The notes beneath the pieces were generated by a model, which saw only the letters and a list, made by a program, of their open reading frames with translations, ran no database searches and was not told the origin of the DNA. The translations under genes and the position numbers were made by a program. Below, in pieces: positions 8,816 through 21,460 of a stretch of DNA of 64,000 nucleotides. This DNA is from Deltaproteobacteria bacterium (GTDB taxonomy: Bacteria > Myxococcota_A > UBA9160 > SMWR01): NCBI GenBank assembly GCA_019310965.1, contig JAFDDG010000012.1, positions 24,076 through 88,075 on the forward strand. Direction: 5' to 3'. The first letter of the stretch is position 1; each line of letters begins with the position of its first letter.

Positions 8816-9853
8816 CTAGGTGAGCGCAACGTCCTTCAGCAGAGGCAGGTTGTCGAGAGCTGCGCCGGCGCCGTGCACGACGGCGGTGAAGGGGTCCTCA
8901 CTGCGCAGGATCGGAAGCTTGGTCTCCTGACGCAGCACCACGTCCAGGTCACGCAGCATCGAGCCTCCACCCACCAGCATGATGCCGCGGTCGATGATGT
9001 CCGCCGCCAGCTCCGGCGGCGTCTTCTCGAGCGTCAGGTGCACCGCCTCGACGATGGCGTGAATCGGCTCCACCAAGGCTTCCCGCACCTCTTCGCTGGT
9101 AGCGACGACCACCTTGGGGATGCCGGCCACCAGGTCGCGGCCCTTGATCTCCATGGTTTCTGTCTTTCCCGACGGCGATGCGGTGGCGATCGTCATCTTG
9201 ATCGCCTCGGCGCTGCGCTCGCCCACCAACACGTTGTACTTGCGCTTCACGTAATTGATGATCGCATCGTCCATCTTGTCACCGCCGCAGCGGATCGACT
9301 TCGAGGTGACGATGCCGGAGAGCGAGATCACGGCAACGTCCGTTGTTCCGCCGCCGATGTCCACCACCATGTTGCCGGTGGGCGCGGTGACGTCGAGACC
9401 GGCGCCGATGGCAGCCGCCATCGGCTCCTCGATCAGGTAGACCTCGCGTGCGCCGGCGGAGAGCGCCGACTCTCGCACGGCGCGTTTTTCGACACTCGTG
9501 ATGCAGGGCGGAACGCAGATCACCATGCGCGGGCGCACCAGCTTGCGACGGCTGTGGGCACGCTGGATGAAGTAGCGAAGCATCGCCTCGGTGATTTCGA
9601 AGTCGGCGATCACGCCGTCCTTGATCGGGCGAATCGCGCGAATGCCGCTGGGCGTGCGCCCGAGCATCTCCTTGGCCTCGTGGCCCACCGCCAACACGCG
9701 CTCGCCGCGGCCCGAGGAATCCTGCGTCACAGCCACCACTGACGGTTCCGAGCACACGAGGCCCTTACCGCGCACATAGACGAGGGTGTTGGCGGTACCG
9801 AGGTCGATAGCCAGATCGTGGGAGAAAAAGCCTGCGATGGCATCGAAGAACAT
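8816..9853 (-). CDS. mreB: MreB actin-like rod-shape protein
   Basis: MreB polymerises under the inner membrane and guides the elongasome. The 345-residue protein has the full actin fold signatures: DLGTANTLVYVRGKGLVCSEPSVVAV (phosphate 1), VVDIGGGTTDVAVISL (phosphate 2) and IMLVGGGSMLRDLD (adenosine motif). The N-terminal MFFDAIAGFFSHD could be the amphipathic membrane-binding helix seen in Gram-negative MreB. No mreC, mreD, mrdA or rodA is next to it, so this may be a second, orphan paralogue. Confidence 0.96.
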   Translation of the reverse strand: MFFDAIAGFFSHDLAIDLGTANTLVYVRGKGLVCSEPSVVAVTQDSSGRGERVLAVGHEAKEMLGRTPSGIRAIRPIKDGVIADFEITEAMLRYFIQRAHSRRKLVRPRMVICVPPCITSVEKRAVRESALSAGAREVYLIEEPMAAAIGAGLDVTAPTGNMVVDIGGGTTDVAVISLSGIVTSKSIRCGGDKMDDAIINYVKRKYNVLVGERSAEAIKMTIATASPSGKTETMEIKGRDLVAGIPKVVVATSEEVREALVEPIHAIVEAVHLTLEKTPPELAADIIDRGIMLVGGGSMLRDLDVVLRQETKLPILRSEDPFTAVVHGAGAALDNLPLLKDVALT

Positions 9854-10154: not shown

Positions 10155-10502
10155 CTAGCGCCCCTGCTCGGGATCCCGCTTTACGAGCTCGGAGAGCTCG
10201 GAGACGATCGAGCGCAGATCGCCGAGATGCGCGCGGTGGGCGGAGACGGCGGCCTCGGCAGCGGAGAGTTCGGTCTCGAGCTCGCCGATCGCGTTCTCCA
10301 GCAAGCCGACCTGGACGACTAGACCCGTGGCCCGGCGATTCTCGAGTGCAAGCCCCAGGAGCGCGACAGCCAGGAGCCCGAGCAGCGCCCACAGGGACCA
10401 ACGGCCAACCCGCGGCGTCTCGTCCCCCGGTACCGGCTCGCTCGAACCCGGCCTCGAGTCGCCGTCCGGAACCACCTCCAGCTTCGGACGCGCTTCGGAC
10501 AC
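10155..10502 (-). CDS. small membrane-anchored coiled-coil protein after pafA
   Basis: The 115-residue product has a charged 33-residue N-terminal tail, one transmembrane segment (SLWALLGLLAVALLGLAL), then a heptad-like helix with VQVGLLENAIGELETELSAAEAAVSAHRAHLGDLRSIVSELSELV. This gives a bitopic protein with a coiled coil, probably on the periplasmic side. Codon use is like its neighbours. The start appears to be GTG with no clear Shine-Dalgarno, 62 bp after pafA on the same strand. It is therefore a candidate last gene of the Pup-proteasome operon. No known family was recognised; the layout superficially recalls FtsB/FtsL-like proteins. Confidence 0.65.
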   Translation of the reverse strand: MSEARPKLEVVPDGDSRPGSSEPVPGDETPRVGRWSLWALLGLLAVALLGLALENRRATGLVVQVGLLENAIGELETELSAAEAAVSAHRAHLGDLRSIVSELSELVKRDPEQGR

Positions 10503-10564: not shown

Positions 10565-11971
10565 CTAGCTCTGGATGACGAGCTTCGAGAGGCTCGTCTT
10601 GCGCAGGTTGGTCTTCTGGATCGTGCGCACCAGCTCGGCGACCTTCTCGATGTCGGTCTCGAACGGATTGTTGCAGATGACGCGCACGTTCAGCAGGTTG
10701 CCTAGGCGGATGTTCGACCAGTCCAGGTCGTACTGGATCGAGTTCTGCCGCGCGAGCTTGATGAACTCGCCGCGCATTCGCGCGCGGGTGTCCGGCGGCG
10801 GCTCGGTCTTGCCCTTGATGATCTCCTCATCCTCGAGCACCCGCTCCACCGATCCCGCCCGCTCGAGCAGGTAGTAGAGACCTCGGTTCATGCGGATGTC
10901 GTGGTATTGAAGATCGAGCATGAAGACGCGCGGATCGTTCCAGGTGGTGTCCTTGCGATCGATGTAGGACTGGATCATCCGGCGCTTGATCAACCAGTCG
11001 ATGTGGCGATCGAGCTTGTCGGGATCGGAGTCGAGACAATCGAGCGAGAACTGCCACATCTCGACGGCCATCTTGAGCTCGTCGGAGACGGGGTACTGCT
11101 CGAGGTACTTCTGTGCCATCTCGCAATACTCGCGCTGGATATTGATCGGCGAATACTCGCGGCCGTTGTCCAGCCGCAACTTGCGCTTGCAGGTCGTGTC
11201 GTAGGAGATGTCCTTGATCGCCTTGACCGGGTTGCGCAGGGTGAAATCCTGATTGATGTAGTTGTCCTCGATCATCTGGAGGACCACGGCACAAGTGCCG
11301 ATCTTCAGGAAGTTCGTGTACTCGGACATATTCGAGTCGCCCACGATCACGTGCAACCGGCGGTACTTCTCCCGGTCCGCGTGGGGCTCGTCGCGGGTGT
11401 TGATGATCGAGCGGTCGTTGGTCGTGGTGCCCGAGATCTTCTGGTAGATGTGCTGGGCACGCTGGCTGACGCAGTAGTGCACGCCGTCCTGGGTCTGGAA
11501 GACCTTGCCCGCACCGGTATAGATCTGGCGCGTCACCAAGAAGGGAATCAACTGCTCGGCCAGGTAATAGAAGTCGACATCCCGGTCGACGAGGTAGTTC
11601 TCGTGGCAGCCGTAGCTGTTGCCGACGAAGTCGGTGTTGTTCTTGAAGATCGAGAGCTTCCCGGCAATGCGCTCGTCGCGAATCTTCTCCTCGGCGTAGA
11701 TCTGGAGGTCCTCGAGGATTCGCTCGCCGGCCTTGTCGTAGAGGATCACGTCTCGCGGCGACGCGCACTCCGGCGTGGCGTACTCCGGGTGGCAGCCGGT
11801 GTCCTGGTAGAAGCGGGCACCGTTTTCGAGGAAGACGTTGAGGAAGTGCTCGGTGGTAATCAGCTTCTCGAAGAGGAAGCGGATCGCCTTCTCTACGGGC
11901 AGCGTCTTCCGCCCTTCGGGCGTGAAGATGATGCCGTACTCGGTTTCGACGCCGTAAATCCGCTTCTGCAC
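10565..11971 (-). CDS. pafA: Pup-protein ligase PafA
   Basis: PafA uses ATP to join the C-terminal glutamate of deamidated Pup to substrate lysines. The 468-residue protein begins RIYGVETEYGIIF, the ExEYG nucleotide-site signature of the PafA/Dop carboxylate-amine ligase family. It continues with NGARFYQDTGCHPEYATPE, FKNNTDFVGNSYGCHENY and NTRDEPHADREKYRRLHVIVGDSNMSEY. It lacks the extra loop found after the first motif in Dop, which separates it from the paralogue at 13811-15295. It is 23 bp downstream of prcA in the same operon. Confidence 0.96.
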   Translation of the reverse strand: MQKRIYGVETEYGIIFTPEGRKTLPVEKAIRFLFEKLITTEHFLNVFLENGARFYQDTGCHPEYATPECASPRDVILYDKAGERILEDLQIYAEEKIRDERIAGKLSIFKNNTDFVGNSYGCHENYLVDRDVDFYYLAEQLIPFLVTRQIYTGAGKVFQTQDGVHYCVSQRAQHIYQKISGTTTNDRSIINTRDEPHADREKYRRLHVIVGDSNMSEYTNFLKIGTCAVVLQMIEDNYINQDFTLRNPVKAIKDISYDTTCKRKLRLDNGREYSPINIQREYCEMAQKYLEQYPVSDELKMAVEMWQFSLDCLDSDPDKLDRHIDWLIKRRMIQSYIDRKDTTWNDPRVFMLDLQYHDIRMNRGLYYLLERAGSVERVLEDEEIIKGKTEPPPDTRARMRGEFIKLARQNSIQYDLDWSNIRLGNLLNVRVICNNPFETDIEKVAELVRTIQKTNLRKTSLSKLVIQS

Positions 11972-11994
11972 TAGGCCGTCCGCCGGATGGGAGT

Positions 11995-12693
11995 CTAGCC
12001 CCCCAGATAGTCCCTCAGTGTATCGGCGAATAGGCGGTGAAACTTGCGTCCCGTCCGACTCCCATCTAACACACAGACTTCGAGGTTTTCCGGCGACACT
12101 TGCGGCTGCGCTTCCGCCGCACGTTGCAGTGCGTTGCGCCCGAGACGCAGCGCATCACGCAGAGAGAGGCCATCCCGGTACTCGTCGCGCAAGTAGCCGG
12201 CAAGATCGTCCGCGGCCCCCCCGATCACACAGAAGCCCGAGTGGTCGCTGATGCTGCCGTCGAACGTCACGCGGTAGATGGCGTTTCGTTCGTGACCGGC
12301 CAGCGTGGGGTCGCCCACCTCGGCCACGATCACCTCCGCCTCGAGCGGCTTGAGCTCCCGAGTGAAGACGTCGCCGATCACCTGCGAATAAGCGTTGGCG
12401 AGGGCTTTTGCCCTCACATCGTCCCGCGAGTAGGCGTAGCCCTTGGTGTCTGCGTAGCGTACGCCGACCTTCCGCAGCTGGTCGAACTCGCTGAACTTGC
12501 CCACGCCCGCGAAGGCAATGCGGTCGTAGATCTCGCCAATCTTCATCAGCGAGGACGGATTCTCCGCCATGATGGCAACGCCGCCCTCGAACTCCAGGGT
12601 CACGCTGGGCTTGCCGCGGGCGATACCCTTGCGGGCGTACTCCGCCTTGTCCTGCATCACCTGCTCGGGCGACACGTAGAACGGCATGCTCAT
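11995..12693 (-). CDS. prcA: 20S proteasome alpha subunit
   Basis: PrcA forms the outer rings of the bacterial 20S proteasome and gates substrate entry. The 232-residue product starts MSMPFYVSPEQVMQDKAEYARKGIARGK, closely matching the actinobacterial alpha N-terminus that forms the gate. It continues with AENPSSLMKIGEIYDRIAFAGVGKFSEFDQLR and DTKGYAYSRDDVRAKALANAYSQ. The ATG overlaps the prcB stop (ATGA), so the two subunits are translationally coupled. The ORF extends further upstream, but that part is out-of-frame prcB sequence. Confidence 0.96.
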   Translation of the reverse strand: MSMPFYVSPEQVMQDKAEYARKGIARGKPSVTLEFEGGVAIMAENPSSLMKIGEIYDRIAFAGVGKFSEFDQLRKVGVRYADTKGYAYSRDDVRAKALANAYSQVIGDVFTRELKPLEAEVIVAEVGDPTLAGHERNAIYRVTFDGSISDHSGFCVIGGAADDLAGYLRDEYRDGLSLRDALRLGRNALQRAAEAQPQVSPENLEVCVLDGSRTGRKFHRLFADTLRDYLGG

Positions 12694-13469
12694 GACGAGA
12701 CCCCCACGATCGAGCGATATGCAGCTTCGACGGCGGTGTCGTCCGCGCGTTCGACGCCCCGTTCCGTACAGAAACACACGATGGGAAAGATGCGACGCTG
12801 CAGATCGACGCCGCCGGTGGCGCGATCCTGATCGGCGGCGTCCGTCAACGCCTGTACCGCGTTGCGCAGCCCGTCTTCCTGGCCCCCATTGATGTCGTGA
12901 CTCTTCTTCAACGACTCGCCGGCGTAGAGACCGCCCGAGCCGGTGGCCTCGAATTCGGTCTCCTCGTAACGACCACCGGTGACGTCGAACTTCCAGAGCC
13001 GCCCCTGACGGCGGCGCAGGTCGTAGCCGGCAAAGAGCGGCACGACCACCAATCCCTGCATGGCGGCCGGCAGGTTGGCGCGGATCATCTGGGAGAGCTT
13101 GTTGGCCTTGCCGTCGATCTCGAGGGGCTCGCCCTCGATCTTCTCGTAGTGCTCCAGTTCGATGCGCATGAGCCGCGCCATCTCGATGGCGGGCCCGGCC
13201 GCACCGGCGATGGCCATCAGTGAGTAATTATCCGTCGCGAACACCTTCTCGATGTCGCGGGACGCCACGCGATGGCCCTCAGTGGCGAGGCGGTCGCCGG
13301 CCACGATCACGCCGTCGCGGTACTTGAACGAAAGCACCGTGGTCCCGTGCGGCACCTTGGAGGCGTCGAACGACTCGGCCACGCGCGAGTAATCCGCACG
13401 CAAGTGAGCGTAGTCTACCTGCAGGAGCTCCGAAAAACTGGAACCCCTGTATTTCCCACCGATCTGCAA
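12690..13469 (-). CDS. prcB: 20S proteasome beta subunit (catalytic)
   Basis: PrcB is the proteolytic subunit, an N-terminal-nucleophile hydrolase made as a precursor. The mature chain starts at Thr43 of my model (HG|TTVLSFKY). In mature numbering Thr1, Asp17 (AGDR) and Lys33 (DIEKVF) are all present, so it should be active. The propeptide contains SSFSELLQ, like the SSFTDFL of Mycobacterium PrcB. The ORF runs to 13814, but that upstream part overlaps pup in another frame. I place the start at TTG 13469, with AAGGGGGG just before it; GTG 13496 is an alternative. This gives 259 residues. Confidence 0.93.
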   Translation of the reverse strand: MQIGGKYRGSSFSELLQVDYAHLRADYSRVAESFDASKVPHGTTVLSFKYRDGVIVAGDRLATEGHRVASRDIEKVFATDNYSLMAIAGAAGPAIEMARLMRIELEHYEKIEGEPLEIDGKANKLSQMIRANLPAAMQGLVVVPLFAGYDLRRRQGRLWKFDVTGGRYEETEFEATGSGGLYAGESLKKSHDINGGQEDGLRNAVQALTDAADQDRATGGVDLQRRIFPIVCFCTERGVERADDTAVEAAYRSIVGVSS

Positions 13470-13531
13470 GGCAACCCCCCTTCCCCTGTGCAGCACCGTG
13501 GCATCGCCGCGCCGGTCTGCCGGCGCCTCGA

Positions 13532-13792
13532 CTATTGCCCGCCGCGCTGAACGTAATTCTTGACGAATTCTTCCGCGTTCTCTTCCAGCACCTCGTCGAT
13601 CTCGTCGACGAGCGCATCCATCTCTTCCTTGAGCTTCTCGCCCTTCTTCGCCAGCTTCTGGCCACCGTCGCCGGACGCTTCGTCCTCGCCCCCACCGCCC
13701 TTCTTCGGCGCCTGCTTCTGGCCCGACTCCGCTGCCGAGACGATCGGCAGGGCATCCGGGCGATGGATCAACGTCGTATTCAGTACTCGCAT
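13532..13792 (-). CDS. pup: prokaryotic ubiquitin-like protein Pup
   Basis: Pup is the small, largely disordered protein tag conjugated to lysines for proteasomal degradation. The C-terminal half (EKLKEEMDALVDEIDEVLEE, then NAEEFVKNYVQRGGQ) is an almost textbook Pup: the Mpa-binding helix followed by the GGQ end that Dop must deamidate to GGE. The middle is Gly/Lys/Asp-rich (PKKGGGGEDE). The open frame is 86 residues from its only ATG, with about 20 extra N-terminal residues (MRVLNTTLIHRPDALPIVSA) compared with 60-70-residue Pups. It sits 18 bp after dop and 62 bp before prcB. Confidence 0.95.
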   Translation of the reverse strand: MRVLNTTLIHRPDALPIVSAAESGQKQAPKKGGGGEDEASGDGGQKLAKKGEKLKEEMDALVDEIDEVLEENAEEFVKNYVQRGGQ

Positions 13793-13810
13793 GGCTCTCT
13801 CTCGCGCGGG

Positions 13811-15295
13811 TCAAGCCCGCAAATTCTTGACCAGATCGGCGGCAGTGGGCGAACGATCGAGCAACTCGGAAACGTGGGCACGAGAGCCCTTGAGCGGCTC
13901 TGCCATCGTAATACGCCGGACCGGCTCATCATCGACACTGAACGAAATCGAATCCCAGTTCACCCCGAAGACCGCCGAGCCGTAGCGACGCAAACACTCG
14001 CCGCGGAAGAACGCACGCGTGTCTTCCGGCGGCGCCGTGATCGCAGCAATGATCTCTTCATCGGTCGCGATGCGTTCGGCACGTCCCTGTCGTTCCAGCA
14101 TGAAGTATAGGCCTTTGTCCTGCCGCAGGTCGTGGTACTGCAGGTCCAGCATCTGCACCTGAGGTGCGCCCCAATCGAGGCCCTTGCGCTCCTTGAAGCT
14201 CTCGATGAGAGCCTTCTTCATCACCCAGTCGACCTGCGTTGCGAGTTCCATTGGATCTCGCTCGAGTGCGTCGAGCGCTGCCGCCCATTTGCCGATGATA
14301 TCGCGCTCCCATTCCTGGCTGGTGCGACCCGCCAGGTACTTTTCCGCGAGCGTCAGATACTCCCGCTGGACCTGCACGGCAGTCCAGTGTTTCCCGTTCT
14401 CCATTGCCAGCTCGACGCGACAACTCGGATCGTGAGAAACCTCCTTGATGGCGCGCACCGGATCGCGCAACGAGAGGCTGCGGTCGATGGCGCCGTCTTC
14501 GATCATCGAGAGCACGAGGGTCGTGACGCCCTGGCGCAGATAGATCGTGTACTCGGAGAGATTCGCATCGCCCACGATCACGTGCAGCCGCCGGTACTTC
14601 TCGCGGTCGGCGTGGGGCTCGTCCCGGGTGTTTATGATCGGCCGCTTCACCATCGTGTCGAGGGCGACCTCTGTCTCGAAAAAATCGGCCCGCTGGGAGA
14701 TCTGATAGTCGCAGGGCTGGCTGCGGTTCTCGCTGCCCACCTTGCCGGCCCCACAGTAGATCTGCCTGGTCGCGAAGAAGGGCATCAGGTGCTCCACCAC
14801 CTGCTTGAAGGAGGTGCGACGGTCCATGAGATAGTTCTCGTGGGCTCCGTAGCTGTTGCCCTTGCGATCGCTGTTGTTCTTGTAGAGCAGCATCTGCATG
14901 CCAGCCGGCAACAGCGCGTTGGCCTCGCGGCGGCTGGCCTCGATGATGCGCTCCCCCGCCTTCTCGTGGATCACCAGATCGCGCGGGTTCGTCACTTCAG
15001 GACACGAGTACTCCGGGTGTGCGTGATCCACGTAGTAGCGGGCGCCGTTGATCAGCGTCTTGTTGCGGGCGATGTTCTCCTGCTGGTTCGGGGTGTACTT
15101 CTCCCCCTCGACCGTGAACCCGCGCGCGTCCGCCAGCGGATTCTCCTGATCGTAGTCCCACAGGATCTCGCCCGCGTGATCCTCCCGGTAGGCATTGACC
15201 AGGAGCACGCAGCTCGAAATGGGATCGAAGTCGGGATCACCTTTGACAGTGATCCCGTACTCGATCTCCGTACCCATCACCTTCGGAATTGCCAT
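13811..15295 (-). CDS. dop: Pup deamidase/depupylase Dop
   Basis: Dop deamidates the Pup C-terminal Gln to Glu and also removes Pup from substrates. The 494-residue protein is a PafA paralogue starting MAIPKVMGTEIEYGITV. After the first strand it has an insertion (SCVLLVNAYREDHAGEILWDYDQENPLADARGFTVEGE), the place of the Dop-loop that distinguishes Dop from PafA. Later motifs are NGARYYVDHAHPEYSCPE, YKNNSDRKGNSYGAHENY and NTRDEPHADREKYRRLHVIVGDANLSEY. It lies between mpa (27 bp) and pup (18 bp). Its presence fits the GGQ-ended Pup. Confidence 0.96.
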   Translation of the reverse strand: MAIPKVMGTEIEYGITVKGDPDFDPISSCVLLVNAYREDHAGEILWDYDQENPLADARGFTVEGEKYTPNQQENIARNKTLINGARYYVDHAHPEYSCPEVTNPRDLVIHEKAGERIIEASRREANALLPAGMQMLLYKNNSDRKGNSYGAHENYLMDRRTSFKQVVEHLMPFFATRQIYCGAGKVGSENRSQPCDYQISQRADFFETEVALDTMVKRPIINTRDEPHADREKYRRLHVIVGDANLSEYTIYLRQGVTTLVLSMIEDGAIDRSLSLRDPVRAIKEVSHDPSCRVELAMENGKHWTAVQVQREYLTLAEKYLAGRTSQEWERDIIGKWAAALDALERDPMELATQVDWVMKKALIESFKERKGLDWGAPQVQMLDLQYHDLRQDKGLYFMLERQGRAERIATDEEIIAAITAPPEDTRAFFRGECLRRYGSAVFGVNWDSISFSVDDEPVRRITMAEPLKGSRAHVSELLDRSPTAADLVKNLRA

Positions 15296-15322
15296 CAGTT
15301 CTCCGGCGCGGAGCGCGCCCTT

Positions 15323-17167
15323 CTAGAGATACTGGCCCGAGGTGACTTCGTTCTCAATCGACTGTTCCTTGCGACTGAGGTTGGTCATGAGCGTGCGCAC
15401 ATTGATGATGCGCTCGCCCTTGCGGCCCGAGATGCGGGCCCAGTCGTCGGGATTCGTGGTGTTGGGCAGGTCTTCGTTCTCCTTGAATTCCTCGTTGACG
15501 GCCTCGATCATGTCGTCGACGTGGATCCCGCGCTCACCGTGGTCGATCGTGCGCTTGACCGCCTTCTTCTTCGCCCGCGCGACGATGTTCTCGATCATCG
15601 CACCGCTCGAGAAGTCCTTGAAGTAGAAGATCTCGCGCTCGCCCTTGGCGTATGTCACCTCGAGGAACTTGTTTTCGTCGTCCGTGCGGTACATCCGCTC
15701 GATCGTCTCGTCGACCATGCTCTTCGCGATCTCTTCGGGCACACTGCCGTACCTGTCCACCGCTTTCTGGTGGAAGGGCAGGTCCGCCGTCAGGTACTTG
15801 GAGAAGATCTCGCGCGCGGCGTCCGCGTTGGGGCGCTGCACCTTGATCTTCAGATCCAGCCGACCAGGCCGCAGCACGGCCGGATCGATCAGATCCTGCC
15901 GATTGCTGGCACCGATCACGATCACGTTGTTGAGTGACTCGACGCCGTCGATCTCCGCCAGGAACTGGGCGACGACCGTGGCCTCCATGTCCGAGGAGAT
16001 CCCCGAACCGCGCATGCGGAACAGCGAGTCCATCTCGTCGAAGAAGATCACGACCGGCACGTCTTCACTGGCCTTGTCGCGAGCCTTCTTGAAGACCTCG
16101 CGCAGCTTGTGCTCCGTCTCGCCCACGTACTTGTTGAGGAGTTCGGGGCCCTTCACGTTCAGGAAGTACGACTTGGTCGCCTGGCCCGTGCGCTTCTCGA
16201 TGCTCTTGGCGAGGCTATTGGCCACCGCCTTGGCAATCAGCGTCTTGCCGCAGCCTGGCGGGCCATAGAGCAGGATGCCCTTCGGCGGTCGCAGCTTGTG
16301 CTCCGCGAAGACCTCCGGGTGTATGTAGGGCAGCTCGACCGAATCGCGCAGCTTCTCGATCTGCTCCGCGAGCCCGCCGATATTCTCATAGGTAACGTCC
16401 GGGATCTCCTCGAGCACCACCTCTTCCACCACCGACTTCGGCAGCTTCTCGAAGGCGTAGTGCGTGCGCGGGTCGAAGAGCACGTGATCGCCCACCTTGA
16501 GCTTCTCACTGCGCAGCGGCTCGGAGAGCGTCACCACGCGCTCGTCGTCGGTGTGGCCCAGCACGATCGCGCGGTTGTCGGCCAGCAGATCGACGACCGA
16601 CGCGATCTCGCCGCGAGGCTGGTAGCCCGCACCTTCCACGACGTTGAAGGCTTCGTTCAGGACGACGAGTTGGCCTTCTTCGAAGGTGAAGGCATCGAGA
16701 TTGGGGTGCACGTTCACCCGCATCTGGCGGCCGTCCACGAAGATCTCGCAAGTACCGTCCTTGTTCGCGCGGTTGAAGAGGCCGTAGTTGTTCGGCGGCG
16801 CGCAGAGCTTGTCGACCTCTTCCTTCAGGAGCTCGACCTGCTGCTTGGCCTCCTGCAACACGGAGACGAGGCGCTCGTTCTGGCGCTCGGCGTCGGCGGC
16901 CTGCTCGCGAGTGAGGTGGTAGCGGCGGCGCAGCGCCTCGAACTCCACCACCATGCGATCGAGCCGGCGCCGAAACTCGTCGGAGTCTCCACCGAAGAGC
17001 CGCACCGCATCCTGCAGGTCTTCGACCTCGTCGCGGTAGGAGCGGGCTTCGCCCGGCTCCCGAGCTTCACCCGATGCGTCTTCGCCGCGCGGCGAAGAGG
17101 AGGAGATCCTCCGCATCACGTCGTGTACGAAGCTCTTCTTGCCAGAACCCGAATCGAACTCGCTCAT
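15323..17167 (-). CDS. mpa: proteasome-activating AAA+ ATPase Mpa/ARC
   Basis: Mpa (ARC) is the hexameric ring ATPase that captures Pup through N-terminal coiled coils, unfolds substrates and feeds the 20S core. The 614-residue protein has a coiled coil at about residues 55-120, OB-fold interdomain sequence, then one AAA module. The AAA module shows Walker A GPPGCGKT, Walker B VVIFFDEMDS and the second region of homology SNRQDLIDPAVLRPGR. It ends in GQYL, the C-terminal tail that inserts into alpha-ring pockets. ATG is preceded by GAGGAG. It is the first gene of the operon after a leader of several hundred bases. Confidence 0.97.
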   Translation of the reverse strand: MSEFDSGSGKKSFVHDVMRRISSSSPRGEDASGEAREPGEARSYRDEVEDLQDAVRLFGGDSDEFRRRLDRMVVEFEALRRRYHLTREQAADAERQNERLVSVLQEAKQQVELLKEEVDKLCAPPNNYGLFNRANKDGTCEIFVDGRQMRVNVHPNLDAFTFEEGQLVVLNEAFNVVEGAGYQPRGEIASVVDLLADNRAIVLGHTDDERVVTLSEPLRSEKLKVGDHVLFDPRTHYAFEKLPKSVVEEVVLEEIPDVTYENIGGLAEQIEKLRDSVELPYIHPEVFAEHKLRPPKGILLYGPPGCGKTLIAKAVANSLAKSIEKRTGQATKSYFLNVKGPELLNKYVGETEHKLREVFKKARDKASEDVPVVIFFDEMDSLFRMRGSGISSDMEATVVAQFLAEIDGVESLNNVIVIGASNRQDLIDPAVLRPGRLDLKIKVQRPNADAAREIFSKYLTADLPFHQKAVDRYGSVPEEIAKSMVDETIERMYRTDDENKFLEVTYAKGEREIFYFKDFSSGAMIENIVARAKKKAVKRTIDHGERGIHVDDMIEAVNEEFKENEDLPNTTNPDDWARISGRKGERIINVRTLMTNLSRKEQSIENEVTSGQYL

Positions 17168-17521
17168 GCCGACATCTCCTCATTCACCGGCCCCCACGCC
17201 GGGGACTCGTCGTCCTGGTGAACGAGTAAGCAAGGACCGTGCCGCAACCCGCGACTCCGGCCCCAAGCCAAGAGTAACGTCGAAGTGCGCAGGCACCTCC
17301 GCCCATTCGAGTGAAACGGTAAGACACGCAGGTGGCTTGCACCCGCGGCCAAGGATATCGAAGCTGAAACGCCTGGTGCGATCATGCTAGAGCCCCCCTC
17401 CCAGCCTGCATTTCGGGCAAACGCAGCTGACCGGTGCGCCAACTCTCTGGCCGGCACGACTCGTGGGGGAAATGCTAAAAACGCCGAACCTCTCGAAAAC
17501 ACGCGCTTTTTACCGATTTCG
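17168..17521 (-). other. long leader of the mpa operon
   Basis: About 350 bp between a putative promoter and mpa. A 73-codon open frame beginning near 17385 would end with a TGA overlapping the mpa ATG, but its codon use is unlike the neighbours, so I treat the stretch as untranslated leader. It may hold regulatory structure; none was recognised. Confidence 0.35.
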
Positions 17522-17549
17522 AGTCTACCCCACGGCCTAGGGGTGTCAA
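17522..17549 (-). promoter_or_regulatory. putative sigma-70-type promoter of the Pup-proteasome operon
   Basis: On the minus strand TTGACA (17544-17549) and TAGACT (17522-17527) are separated by 16 bp. The -35 is perfect; the -10 matches 4 of 6 bases of TATAAT. A 6-bp hairpin (GGGGTG/CACCCC) overlaps the -35. It points towards mpa. Confidence 0.35.
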
Positions 17550-17914
17550 CCGGCACCCCCAGTGCAGAACCTCCCGAAACCCCTCGCCTGCGCAGGCCTC
17601 CTGGATCTTGGACACCGGAGACGCCAGATGGATTCAGCCAGACGCGCAGCAGCGCCGGCACCCGCGGGCGGAACAGCCCGGCGGCCGGAGAGAACGGCGC
17701 TCCGGGCTTTCGCGAGTTGCGGGTGTGGTGCCGCCGCGCGATGCCTCCTTGCATGCGAATTGCCGGAGCTTTGACGCATCTCGCCGGCAGGTGGCGGCCG
17801 TTTGACGCTGCCGGCACCGCGCCAAAATTTGCGGCGCAGGGCTCTTCCCAGGAAACGCGCTGCCCTTCCAGGGCAATTCGCCGCCGAATGACGCGCATAC
17901 CGGCGCTCCGAATC
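17550..17914. other. intergenic region between lolA and the mpa promoter
   Basis: About 365 bp with no gene I can support. Open frames crossing it on both strands lack family similarity and neighbour-like codon use. No T-run terminator after lolA is evident. Confidence 0.5.
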
Positions 17915-18589
17915 TCAGCCCGGCGGCCGTTCGAGCTCGATGACTTCGACGCCTGGCGGCGCCTCGAAGCGGAACACAGCCGGCCCGGGTGCGGTGTTGA
18001 CTCGAATGTTCTCGAAGCGAACGCTCGTGACATTGCCGAACAGATCCGTCACCTCGGTCTCGTGCATGTCGCCCGAGGCCGGCGCGACGGCGATTCGCAA
18101 CTTCTCGAAGGTTGCGGGCGCACGCGGCAACAGCTCGAGCCGCACCTCGTCGGCGCCGCAGGCAAGCTCGGTCACAGTGAATTCGTCCAGCACATCGCCC
18201 TCTCCCAGCAGGAATTGCACGGCCGCGCCGGAGAGAGCCCCGTCTCCGACCGGCAACTTCTGCGCCTCGCCGGCCGCCGGATCGAAGATCCATAGCCACT
18301 CACCGTCGCTCACGACCAGGCTCTCCTCGGGCCCGGTATAGGTCCAGCGCATGCGCCCCGGCTTGGCAAAGACGACGTGTCCCTGGCTCCGAGCGGCGAG
18401 CCCGCCCCCACCCAACGCCATCGAGCGCGACTCTTGCACGAAGTCCGCGCTCAGATCCTCGACCTTCTCGTAACGCGCCTGCACCGCAGCGATGGCACGG
18501 GCCGCACACTCCGGGAGACTCTCATCCACACCACTGGCGGGGGCGGAGAGCGCGAGCAGGAGTGCGGCGGCGAGAATTGCGGGCTTCAC
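17915..18589 (-). CDS. lolA: outer-membrane lipoprotein carrier LolA
   Basis: LolA ferries lipoproteins across the periplasm from LolCDE to the outer membrane. The 224-residue protein has a signal peptide (AILAAALLLALSAPASG), the family start VQARYEKVEDLSADFVQES and the strand FAKPGRMRWTYTGPEESLVVSDGEWLWIFDP. It ends with VEVIELERPPG. It follows ftsK by 31 bp on the same strand, an arrangement seen in many proteobacteria. Its presence is good evidence for an outer membrane in the host. Confidence 0.92.
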   Translation of the reverse strand: MKPAILAAALLLALSAPASGVDESLPECAARAIAAVQARYEKVEDLSADFVQESRSMALGGGGLAARSQGHVVFAKPGRMRWTYTGPEESLVVSDGEWLWIFDPAAGEAQKLPVGDGALSGAAVQFLLGEGDVLDEFTVTELACGADEVRLELLPRAPATFEKLRIAVAPASGDMHETEVTDLFGNVTSVRFENIRVNTAPGPAVFRFEAPPGVEVIELERPPG

Positions 18590-18620: not shown

Positions 18621-21062
18621 TCAAGCTTCGGGCGAGCTGACGAAGACCTCGCGAGGCTTCGTCCCCACCTGGGGTCCGATCACGCCCTCTTCCTCCATCT
18701 GCTCGACCATGCGCGCCGCGCGATTGTAGCCGACCTTGAGCCGGCGCTGGACGTAGGAGATCGACGCGTTGCGCGTCTCGGCAACGATGGCGACGGCGCG
18801 GTCGTACATCTCGTCGGTGTCGTCGGCCGTACCCGCCTCCTTGGACTCCGATTCTTCCCTCACGCGGATCAACGTCTCGTCGAATTGGGGCGCACCCTGC
18901 TCGCGCAGCTGCCGCACCAGATCGGCCACCTCGTCCTCGGTGACGAACGCGCCGTGCACGCGCTGGAGCTTCGACGTGCCCGGCGGCAGGAAGAGCATGT
19001 CGCCCATCCCGAGCAGCTGATCGGCGCCATTCTGATCGAGAATCGTGCGCGAGTCCGTGCGCGAGGACACCTGGAAGGAGATGCGTGCGGGAAAATTCGC
19101 CTTGATGACACCGGTCAACACATCGACGCTCGGTCGCTGGGTCGCGAGTACGAGGTGGATGCCGGCGGCCCGGGCCATCTGCGCCAACCGCTGCAGCGAT
19201 TCTTCTACATCCCGCGCGGACACGACCATCAGGTCCGCAAGTTCGTCGATGACGACGACGATGTAGGGGAAACGACGGTAGGCGACCTCCTCGCCCTCTT
19301 CCTCACCGGGCTTCGCCCGCAAGCGGAAGGTCGTGTTGCCGGCGTCCATCTCCTTTTTGACCCGCGTGTTGTACTGGTCGATGCTGCGCACACCCAGCGC
19401 CTGCATCATCCGGTAGCGCTCTTCCATCTTGTGTACGACGCCCATGAGCGCCGCGGAAGCACGCTTCGGGTTCGTCACCACGTCGGCGAGCAGGTGCGGG
19501 ATGCCCTCGTAGATCGAAAGCTCCAGAAGCTTGGGATCGATCAGCAACAGCTTCAGATCATCGGGCGTAGCGCGGCACAGAATCGAACAGAGCAGCGAAT
19601 TGAGAAAGACGCTCTTGCCGGTACCCGTCGCACCGGCCACCAGCAGATGAGGCATCCTGGCCAGATCGGTGAACGTGGCATTGCCGAAGATGTCCTTCCC
19701 GAGCGCAATGTTCAGCCGCGCCTTGGTGTCGCGGAAGGGCTCCGACTCCACGAGATCGCGGATGTAGACGGTCTCGCGCTGCTGGTTCGCAACTTCGACT
19801 CCGACCACCGACTTGCCCGGCAGTGGCGCGATGATGCGCACCGAGAGAGCACGCAGCGCCAGCGCGAGATCGTCCGAGAGCCCGACGATCTTGTTCACCT
19901 TGATGCCGGACGCCGGCTCGAACTCGTACATCGTGATGACCGGGCCCGGATGCACCGTGATCACCCGGCCTCCGACGCCGAAGTCCGAGAGCTTCTTCTC
20001 GAGAATCCGCGAGTTCATCACCAGACTCTCTCGGTCGTACTGGTGGGTGCGTTCCGGAGGTTTCTGGAAGCGGGTGATATCCGGCAGCTCGTACGGGCCC
20101 CGCTCGCCCCCGTCTTCGAAGTGGAAAGCCTCCTGGGTCTGGCTGCGCTCCCGGGCGCGATCTGCCGCGTGGTCGACGATCATCGGATCGTCGCCCTTGC
20201 TGCGGCGCAGCTTGGGGGTCGCGGCCGGAGCCACGGTCGCCGCGCGGAGGGGTGCTGCGCTCAGCTCCTCGAGTGCGAGGGACGGATCCTCGTCTTCTTC
20301 CTCGTCGTCGGCGCGAGCCGCGGCGACGCGCATGCGCCGGCGGCGCTGCTCGCGCCACACGCCGAGCCACGCGAAGCCGCGCTGCAGGCCGCCCCACAGC
20401 TCGCGGATGCCGTGCGCGCACCGCGCGCCGAGCCCGCGCAGCCATTCGAGCATCCAGCCCAGGACGGCGGCGAGCGCCGCGCCGATCCAGCCGACGCCGA
20501 CGCCGAGCGCACCGAACGCCGTGCCCGTCGAGACACCGGTCCAGCTCAGGAGACCGATCACGCCGACCACGCTGTTGAGCAGCAGCGCGCCCCAGGCACC
20601 CACGAAGAACCCCTCGGCGCCGGCCAGGTGGCGCCCGAGCCAGCCGGCGGGAATGGCGCCGGCGGCGCCCGGGGACGCCTCCTCGATGAGCGGCGGAAAA
20701 GTCGCGGTCGCGACCAGCAGCAGCACCGCACCGACCCAGAATCGCGAGCGCGGCGACGGCACGCCCCGCGCGATCACCAGACGCAGGCCCAGGTACCCCA
20801 TGCCGACAACGCAGACGAGCGAGCCCAGGCCGAGGGTGCCGAACAAGAGGGCGGCACTGCTGGCACCGAACACACCCGCGCGGTTCGCAACGGGCAGCGC
20901 TTCGAAAGCGGGATCCGCAGGATCGAAGCTGCCGAGCGCCAGGCCGAGCAGAAGCGCCAGGCCGATGAGCGCGACTCCGACGCACTCCTGCACGACGCGC
21001 GAGCGGGCCCCCGCGTTGCTACGCCCCTTCGAGCCGCGCTGCTTGGCGCTGGCCCTAGCCAT
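18621..21062 (-). CDS. ftsK: DNA translocase FtsK/SpoIIIE
   Basis: FtsK pumps chromosome termini through the closing septum and activates dimer resolution. From ATG 21062 the product is 813 residues. It has four to five N-terminal transmembrane segments, a short acidic linker, a motor with Walker A VAGATGTGKSVFLNSLL and Walker B YIVVVIDELADLM, and a C-terminal winged-helix gamma domain (YDRAVAIVAETRNASISYVQRRLKVGYNRAARMVEQMEEEG). The track ORF starts 37 codons earlier with a non-ATG codon. I prefer 21062 because the next residues are the usual basic tail before the first membrane helix, but no strong Shine-Dalgarno decides it. Confidence 0.95.
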   Translation of the reverse strand: MARASAKQRGSKGRSNAGARSRVVQECVGVALIGLALLLGLALGSFDPADPAFEALPVANRAGVFGASSAALLFGTLGLGSLVCVVGMGYLGLRLVIARGVPSPRSRFWVGAVLLLVATATFPPLIEEASPGAAGAIPAGWLGRHLAGAEGFFVGAWGALLLNSVVGVIGLLSWTGVSTGTAFGALGVGVGWIGAALAAVLGWMLEWLRGLGARCAHGIRELWGGLQRGFAWLGVWREQRRRRMRVAAARADDEEEDEDPSLALEELSAAPLRAATVAPAATPKLRRSKGDDPMIVDHAADRARERSQTQEAFHFEDGGERGPYELPDITRFQKPPERTHQYDRESLVMNSRILEKKLSDFGVGGRVITVHPGPVITMYEFEPASGIKVNKIVGLSDDLALALRALSVRIIAPLPGKSVVGVEVANQQRETVYIRDLVESEPFRDTKARLNIALGKDIFGNATFTDLARMPHLLVAGATGTGKSVFLNSLLCSILCRATPDDLKLLLIDPKLLELSIYEGIPHLLADVVTNPKRASAALMGVVHKMEERYRMMQALGVRSIDQYNTRVKKEMDAGNTTFRLRAKPGEEEGEEVAYRRFPYIVVVIDELADLMVVSARDVEESLQRLAQMARAAGIHLVLATQRPSVDVLTGVIKANFPARISFQVSSRTDSRTILDQNGADQLLGMGDMLFLPPGTSKLQRVHGAFVTEDEVADLVRQLREQGAPQFDETLIRVREESESKEAGTADDTDEMYDRAVAIVAETRNASISYVQRRLKVGYNRAARMVEQMEEEGVIGPQVGTKPREVFVSSPEA

Positions 21063-21460
21063 GCCTGGAAGTCGTTTCCATGCCCTCACCCCCCCGGGAC
21101 GGGCAGTGATGGAGAGTATCAGGTCCGCCCGACTTCGGCCCGCCGGACGCGTGTCCTCCGGCAGGTCGATCACGTTGTCGCCGGCGCGGATGCGCTCCGC
21201 TGTGCCGGCCGACTGGCCGCCCAGCGCGCGTCCTTTCTGCGATCGATATGGATCGGATCGGCTGGAGCTTGGCCAGGAACTTCCATTTCACCGGGAGCGT
21301 GGTGGTGTGTGTGAGGCCGCAGAAGACCAGGTAGAGCGCGACCCGCACGGTGCGCAGGACGCTGATCACGCCGCGGCATGCCGAGAAGCGCGTGAACACT
21401 CGTCAACACCAAGAAACGCGGTTTGATTCTCGTCGCGACGCGGGGCTGCGGTGACCCGGG
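21063..21460. other. region between ftsK and ssb with possible gene remnant
   Basis: This stretch has no complete gene. On the minus strand about 21290-21390 reads VLRTVRVALYLVFCGLTHTTTLPVKWKFLAKLQPIR with third-position G/C bias like real genes. A neighbour-like frame then continues shifted by one base (GRALGGQSAGTAERIRAGDNVIDLPEDTRP) into the ftsK upstream extension. This could be a decayed or frameshifted small gene. No family was recognised. Confidence 0.3.

Follow-up and report, generated by a model that had tools for sequence, protein, structure and literature searches.

Reviews still call the bacterial proteasome largely actinobacterial and present its pathway as having arisen there. 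Pup and proteasome genes outside Actinobacteria (in nitrospirae, verrucomicrobia and others) have been known since 2008 (Iyer 2008; PMC2588565), and a Gram-negative Pup system has received the name 'UBact' (Lehmann 2017, BBRC 483:946, as cited in PMC12751074). Here we consider a six-gene Pup–proteasome operon, mpa-dop-pup-prcB-prcA-pafA, in a stretch of 64,000 nucleotides (the window) that forms part of an 88 kb contig in a 4.66 Mb metagenome-assembled genome (MAG). The organism belongs to an uncultured class of diderm Myxococcota. Pup-proteasomes in diderms being already known, what is new here is their fixed, class-wide and apparently native state.

With the actinobacterial system (Mycobacterium tuberculosis, Corynebacterium glutamicum) the operon shares its six components, their order and the catalytic and docking residues. 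It differs in its diderm host, in the lack of extra genes among the six, in its place between ftsK-lolA and mreB and in forming a separate clade. The initial annotation of this DNA held that the compact order sets the operon apart from actinobacterial loci. This is not the case, since nearly all Actinomycetota loci examined have the same order and only the spacing is tighter in the window. The systems of Leptospirillum and Methylacidiphilum (PMC2588565) and UBact likewise link Pup, one or more ligases and proteasome genes in a diderm. The window operon differs from them in belonging to another phylum, in being class-wide and in its fixed chromosomal place, UBact entering this comparison only as described in the citing source. 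The membrane-type ligase of Plesiocystis and Rhodopirellula (Iyer 2008) belongs to the PafA superfamily and is probably also present in other Myxococcota, some members of the class among them. It is one long protein into which transmembrane segments are inserted, and no proteasome is linked to it. In contrast, the window encodes a PafA of 468 residues and a Dop of 494 residues, both free of the insert, with prcBA linked to them.

The six genes and their products

All six genes lie on the minus strand from 17167 to 10565. The operon is complete, as the initial annotation had stated, and its account of the gaps (−4 to 62 bp) and of the key residues also agrees with what we read. Chance matches are excluded for the six proteins, with E values from 1e-15 to 1e-222, and five of them (Mpa, Dop, PrcA, PrcB and Pup) pass their NCBIfam equivalog cut-offs.

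The first gene, mpa (ARC; 15323..17167), encodes a proteasomal AAA+ ATPase of 614 residues (TIGR03689, E 9e-222) in which a coiled coil, an OB domain and an AAA domain are followed by a C-terminal GQYL, the tail reading SGQYL. Residues 84–614 align with mycobacterial Mpa (PDB 7px9) through the last residue. The depupylase/deamidase Dop is encoded at 13811..15295 (TIGR03688, 582.6 bits against a cut-off of 492.3), and pup at 13532..13792 (PF05639, E 2e-19; TIGR03687, 57.3 bits against a cut-off of 41.45). Pup has 86 residues and the C-terminus FVKNYVQRGGQ, within the range of 50–90 residues with a G[E/Q] end. By analogy, a GGQ tail would require deamidation by Dop ahead of ligation.

The 20S core is represented by a catalytic β subunit, PrcB (12690..13469; TIGR03690, 288.8 bits; PDB 1q5q/2h6j), and an α subunit, PrcA (11995..12693; TIGR03691, 287.4 bits against a cut-off of 139). 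The likely start of prcB is a TTG at 13469, preceded by the ribosome site AGGGGAAGGGG. This start gives a propeptide of about 42 residues, with the Thr1 codon at 13343; Asp17 and Lys33 are present, and the translated frame matches the mature chain of PDB 1q5q from residue 64 onward. The Pup ligase gene pafA (10565..11971) begins with GTG and encodes 468 residues (PF03136, E 1.5e-150; PDB 4b0t, E 8e-105). PafA and Dop each sit in their own paralogue clade, and the window PafA is, as judged by its Dop score of only 411 bits and its tree position, clearly PafA and not Dop. The genes are separated by 27 bp (mpa-dop), 18 bp (dop-pup), 62 bp (pup-prcB, provided that prcB starts at the TTG) and 23 bp (prcA-pafA), while the prcB stop and the prcA start overlap by 4 bp (ATGA). 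All of the catalytic and docking residues tested are intact in the six proteins.

By homology, the system would work as in M. tuberculosis. Dop would deamidate the C-terminal glutamine of Pup to glutamate, which PafA would phosphorylate using ATP before joining Pup to substrate lysines. An Mpa hexamer would bind Pup through its coiled coil, unfold the substrate and thread it into the PrcA/PrcB 20S core, docked through its GQYL tail; Dop would also strip Pup from substrates. Enzymatic activity, a single transcript, substrates and the regulated degradation route named in the initial annotation are what we infer for the window operon.

Conservation and descent in the class

Named genomes were scanned with a broad profile, a narrower one of two sequences having given no match. 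In a phylum-wide sample the PafA/Dop family is present in 59 of the 60 genomes from the window's class and in 10 of 224 phylum genomes outside that class, and there the members seen were all distant or fragmentary. The block ftsK-lolA-mpa-dop-pup-prcB-prcA-pafA is shared by about 30 loci, which represent several families and a second order. In most loci with a long enough contig mreB comes next; L052, L056 and L064 have no close mreB. The block is also found in the named MAGs L108, L111, L114, L123 and L124, such related MAGs carrying the labels Myxococcota or Deltaproteobacteria. One of them, L111 (OFTM159), matches a contig of G125, a genome in the window's order.

Across the class PafA is 83–96% identical, MreB 71–92% and LolA 36–58%, so the conservation of PafA is on a par with that of MreB and far above that of LolA. 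The GQYL tail of Mpa is kept in 25 of 27 class loci and Thr1, Asp17 and Lys33 of PrcB in every readable one (six PrcB loci missed by the regular expression were read by eye or are truncated). Taken together, the class-wide block, the identities and the kept residues indicate that the operon is old in the class and under purifying constraint. Readable Pup tails in the class are all GGQ or GGE; the two ends occur side by side among L039–L068, and the need for deamidation by Dop would thus vary within one class.

The kept tail and prcBA bear on the suggestion that the operon is expressed with pupylation serving mainly as a reversible mark, degradation being minor. In its favour are Pup loci that lack a proteasome: the Plesiocystis/Rhodopirellula type (PMC2588565), dop-pafA pairs of Chloroflexota with no prc genes nearby and a hybrid cluster without a proteasome that is treated below. 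Given that prcBA and the GQYL tail of Mpa are retained class-wide, we regard this suggestion as unlikely.

Descent was addressed with a joint tree of PafA and Dop and with a tree of five proteins (Mpa, Dop, PrcB, PrcA and PafA; 2002 columns, 45 loci). In the former both paralogues of the class stand beside a Methylomirabilota (Rokubacteria) branch and Actinomycetota form a separate clade. The latter recovers a class clade (100/100) and an Actinomycetota clade (100/100) that excludes the class. Nesting of the class inside Actinomycetota is rejected by the approximately unbiased (AU) test with p = 5e-60, and direct sister status of the two with p = 2e-4. The phylogeny proposed as a check in the initial annotation thus places the genes outside Actinobacteria. 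Inheritance is vertical since at least the ancestor of the class.

We conclude that the operon is native to the class, with a descent separate from that of Actinomycetota and, by homology, a working Pup-proteasome; as a joint explanation we put this at roughly 0.93. Some observations weigh against it. All genomes compared are MAGs. PafA scores 547.2 bits against an NCBIfam equivalog cut-off of 551.3, a narrow miss by 4 bits, probably because that threshold was tuned on Actinobacteria. The G+C content of the operon is 0.62–0.64, compared with 0.65–0.71 in most of the window, although the lolA and mreB stretches are near 0.65. A lower G+C would suit genes lately acquired from Actinomycetota, or a contig that is a chimera, and acquisition by transfer fits the published position that the pathway spread from an origin in Actinobacteria (PMC7947786). 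The same flanks in about 30 class loci are not what a chimera or a recent arrival would leave, the AU test removes Actinomycetota as the parent clade, and in both the PafA and the Dop part of the joint tree a Methylomirabilota branch is the neighbour of the class. Synteny and trees therefore rule out both, the contig is not the chimera that had been named as a possible objection, and we consider this explanation very improbable indeed. Transfer from the sampled Actinomycetota is already refuted.

The phylogeny of the class sits badly with an actinobacterial origin (PMC7947786), and the root of the five-protein tree leaves the direction unsettled. It appears quite probable to us that the forebears of Methylomirabilota, the class and Actinomycetota exchanged the genes laterally in ancient times, with vertical descent thereafter; this concerns the deep origin only and is compatible with an operon native to the class. 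The distribution is patchy (52/60 genomes of the Methylomirabilota-type phylum, 6/145 Verrucomicrobiota and few Acidobacteriota), the rest of Myxococcota has no canonical type, and Methylomirabilota are paraphyletic in the five-protein tree. Set against this, the tree is rooted on Verrucomicrobiota branches that are long, and the direction of transfer is unreadable. With a vertically inherited, class-wide operon that is placed next to Methylomirabilota and not within the actinobacterial clade, the question of origin becomes testable. The operon also offers Gram-negative material for biochemistry.

A second Pup locus on contig C43

When the host genome was searched with PafA, a second PafA/Dop pair was found on contig C43, outside the window. 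It belongs to a run of ten genes (L005:5661-15100) in the order RING, E1, E2, U (a protein of unknown type), ubiquitin-like modifier (Ubl), JAB, Mpa-like AAA ATPase, Dop, Pup and PafA. We refer to this run as the hybrid cluster. The same order is found in L038 (Myxococcota), L090 (Omnitrophota), L288 (Verrucomicrobiota), L094 and L282 (a MAG named 'Gemmatimonadetes' and its relative) and L283 (Acidobacteriota). L284 (Acidobacteriota) has a partial cluster and L287 a shortened one from which the ubiquitin-like half is missing; the L288 genome also holds a canonical operon (L294).

Only two of 91 genomes of the window's class have the hybrid cluster, and its neighbours vary by genome (sigma-54 activators, a RelA/SpoT-like domain, RyR, a sugar-binding regulator); in this it behaves like a mobile module. 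A binning error of C43 was considered and rejected. The tetranucleotide profile of C43 compares with that of the window at 0.88, other class loci giving 0.71–0.82; a gene neighbouring the cluster is 80% identical to that of a genome of the same genus; and the cluster recurs in another genome of the class, there on a contig of 244 kb.

The Pup half has the features of a Pup system. Its Pup ends in GGQ or GGE in eight of nine loci, the other having DGQ, and PafA and Dop lie on opposite sides of the paralogue tree with their conserved motifs kept. The ATPase matches TIGR03689 (E 1e-74) and has no GQYL. In the other half HPN and Cys are invariant in E2, whose model, of moderate confidence (predicted local distance difference test score, pLDDT, 66), finds its best fold matches among ubiquitin-conjugating enzymes (UBC fold). 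The Ubl model has a β-grasp fold (pLDDT 87). The Ubl C-terminus is Ala-Gly, followed in three loci by one or two extra residues that resemble, by analogy, precursors that need processing. E1 is of the ThiF type (PF00899, E 3e-18), the JAB metal motif is present (HxH in 6/6, HSHP in 5/6) and RING is a weak match (PF14446, E 0.001). C43 thus carries all the parts of an E1-E2-RING ubiquitin-like system.

Among the genomes with the hybrid cluster only, proteasome-family matches look like HslV in G315, G316, G317 and G320 and are absent from G319, these MAGs being incomplete. Such 20S-like matches were rejected as PrcA/B where readable, on account of HslV sequence or an adjacent HslU. It seems fairly likely to us that a ubiquitin-like cascade and a pupylation cascade are combined in one conserved ten-gene block, that is, two chemically unrelated modifiers in one pathway, with the ATPase an unfoldase or remodeller and not a proteasome cap. 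Ubl would be conjugated by E1, E2 and RING and removed by JAB, Pup would be ligated by PafA and removed by Dop, and the ATPase would remodel or unfold the marked proteins.

Archaeal and bacterial E1-E2-RING-JAB operons (Caldiarchaeum, Bil-type) have E1, E2, RING, JAB and a ubiquitin-fold modifier in common with C43, where Pup, PafA, Dop and an Mpa-like ATPase join them in a single run. PADLOC returned only weak E1, JAB and ATPase matches, and the cluster is not assigned to defence. No description of the cluster was found in the open literature; subscription papers were outside the search, and its novelty is provisional. It is a more novel result than the window operon and, if it works as read, would connect ubiquitin-type tagging directly with tagging of the Pup type. 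Its PafA proteins in both Myxococcota genomes (L005:13661-16189 and L038:13622-16120) have a C-terminal extension of about 400 residues, with weak TPR matches in L005; the shorter PafA of L090 and L283 does not have it.

Related loci and flanking genes

Long PafA-like proteins of 540–610 residues form one clade drawn from the same class (L073, L074, L075, L077) and from the rest of the phylum (L069–L072, L076). They look like the membrane-type ligase of Plesiocystis, and some class genomes hold both such a protein and the canonical operon. In Chloroflexota (L274, L275, L276, L289, L290, L291) Dop-like and PafA-like genes adjoin, prcA and prcB being absent from the stretches read; in L274, L276 and L289 a small open reading frame ending in GG[E/Q] lies between them. 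In L273 (G533, drawn as Acidobacteriota) the tree joins prcB-prcA-pafA to those of a single MAG from Actinomycetota (L117), which suggests misbinning or recent transfer. Seven Methylomirabilota-type loci (L115, L125, L147, L277, L279, L280, L281) keep mpa-dop-prcB-prcA-pafA with no pup between dop and prcB; L278, also of this type, has it in the usual place. Loss of pup was considered and rejected, as the genomes searched have it elsewhere, e.g. at G632:C1:586174, about 49 kb away.

A scan of the window for tRNA and Rfam features found none. The genes flanking the operon, all on the minus strand, are conserved neighbours. Upstream are lolA (17915..18589), for the outer-membrane lipoprotein carrier (TIGR00547, 119.7 bits against a cut-off of 112), and ftsK (18621..21173), for a DNA translocase (PF01580, PF17854, PF09397, PF13491). 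Downstream of pafA, and adjoining it in most class loci, is mreB (8816..9853; TIGR00904, 506 bits). LolA is a diderm marker and passes its NCBIfam cut-off, which, with FtsK and MreB at the flanks, upholds the diderm host proposed in the initial annotation. The site beside mreB and lolA/ftsK is a matter of linkage, and position demonstrates no functional tie. The gap between lolA and mpa (17168..17914, minus strand) is a probable promoter region, similar in length in relatives with little of its sequence kept. Between pafA and mreB a small open reading frame (10155..10502, minus strand) has no Pfam match and shows weak conservation among some members of the class, with counterparts of 28–36% identity in the corresponding position in L046, L047, L050, L059, L061, L068, L109, L114 and L124.

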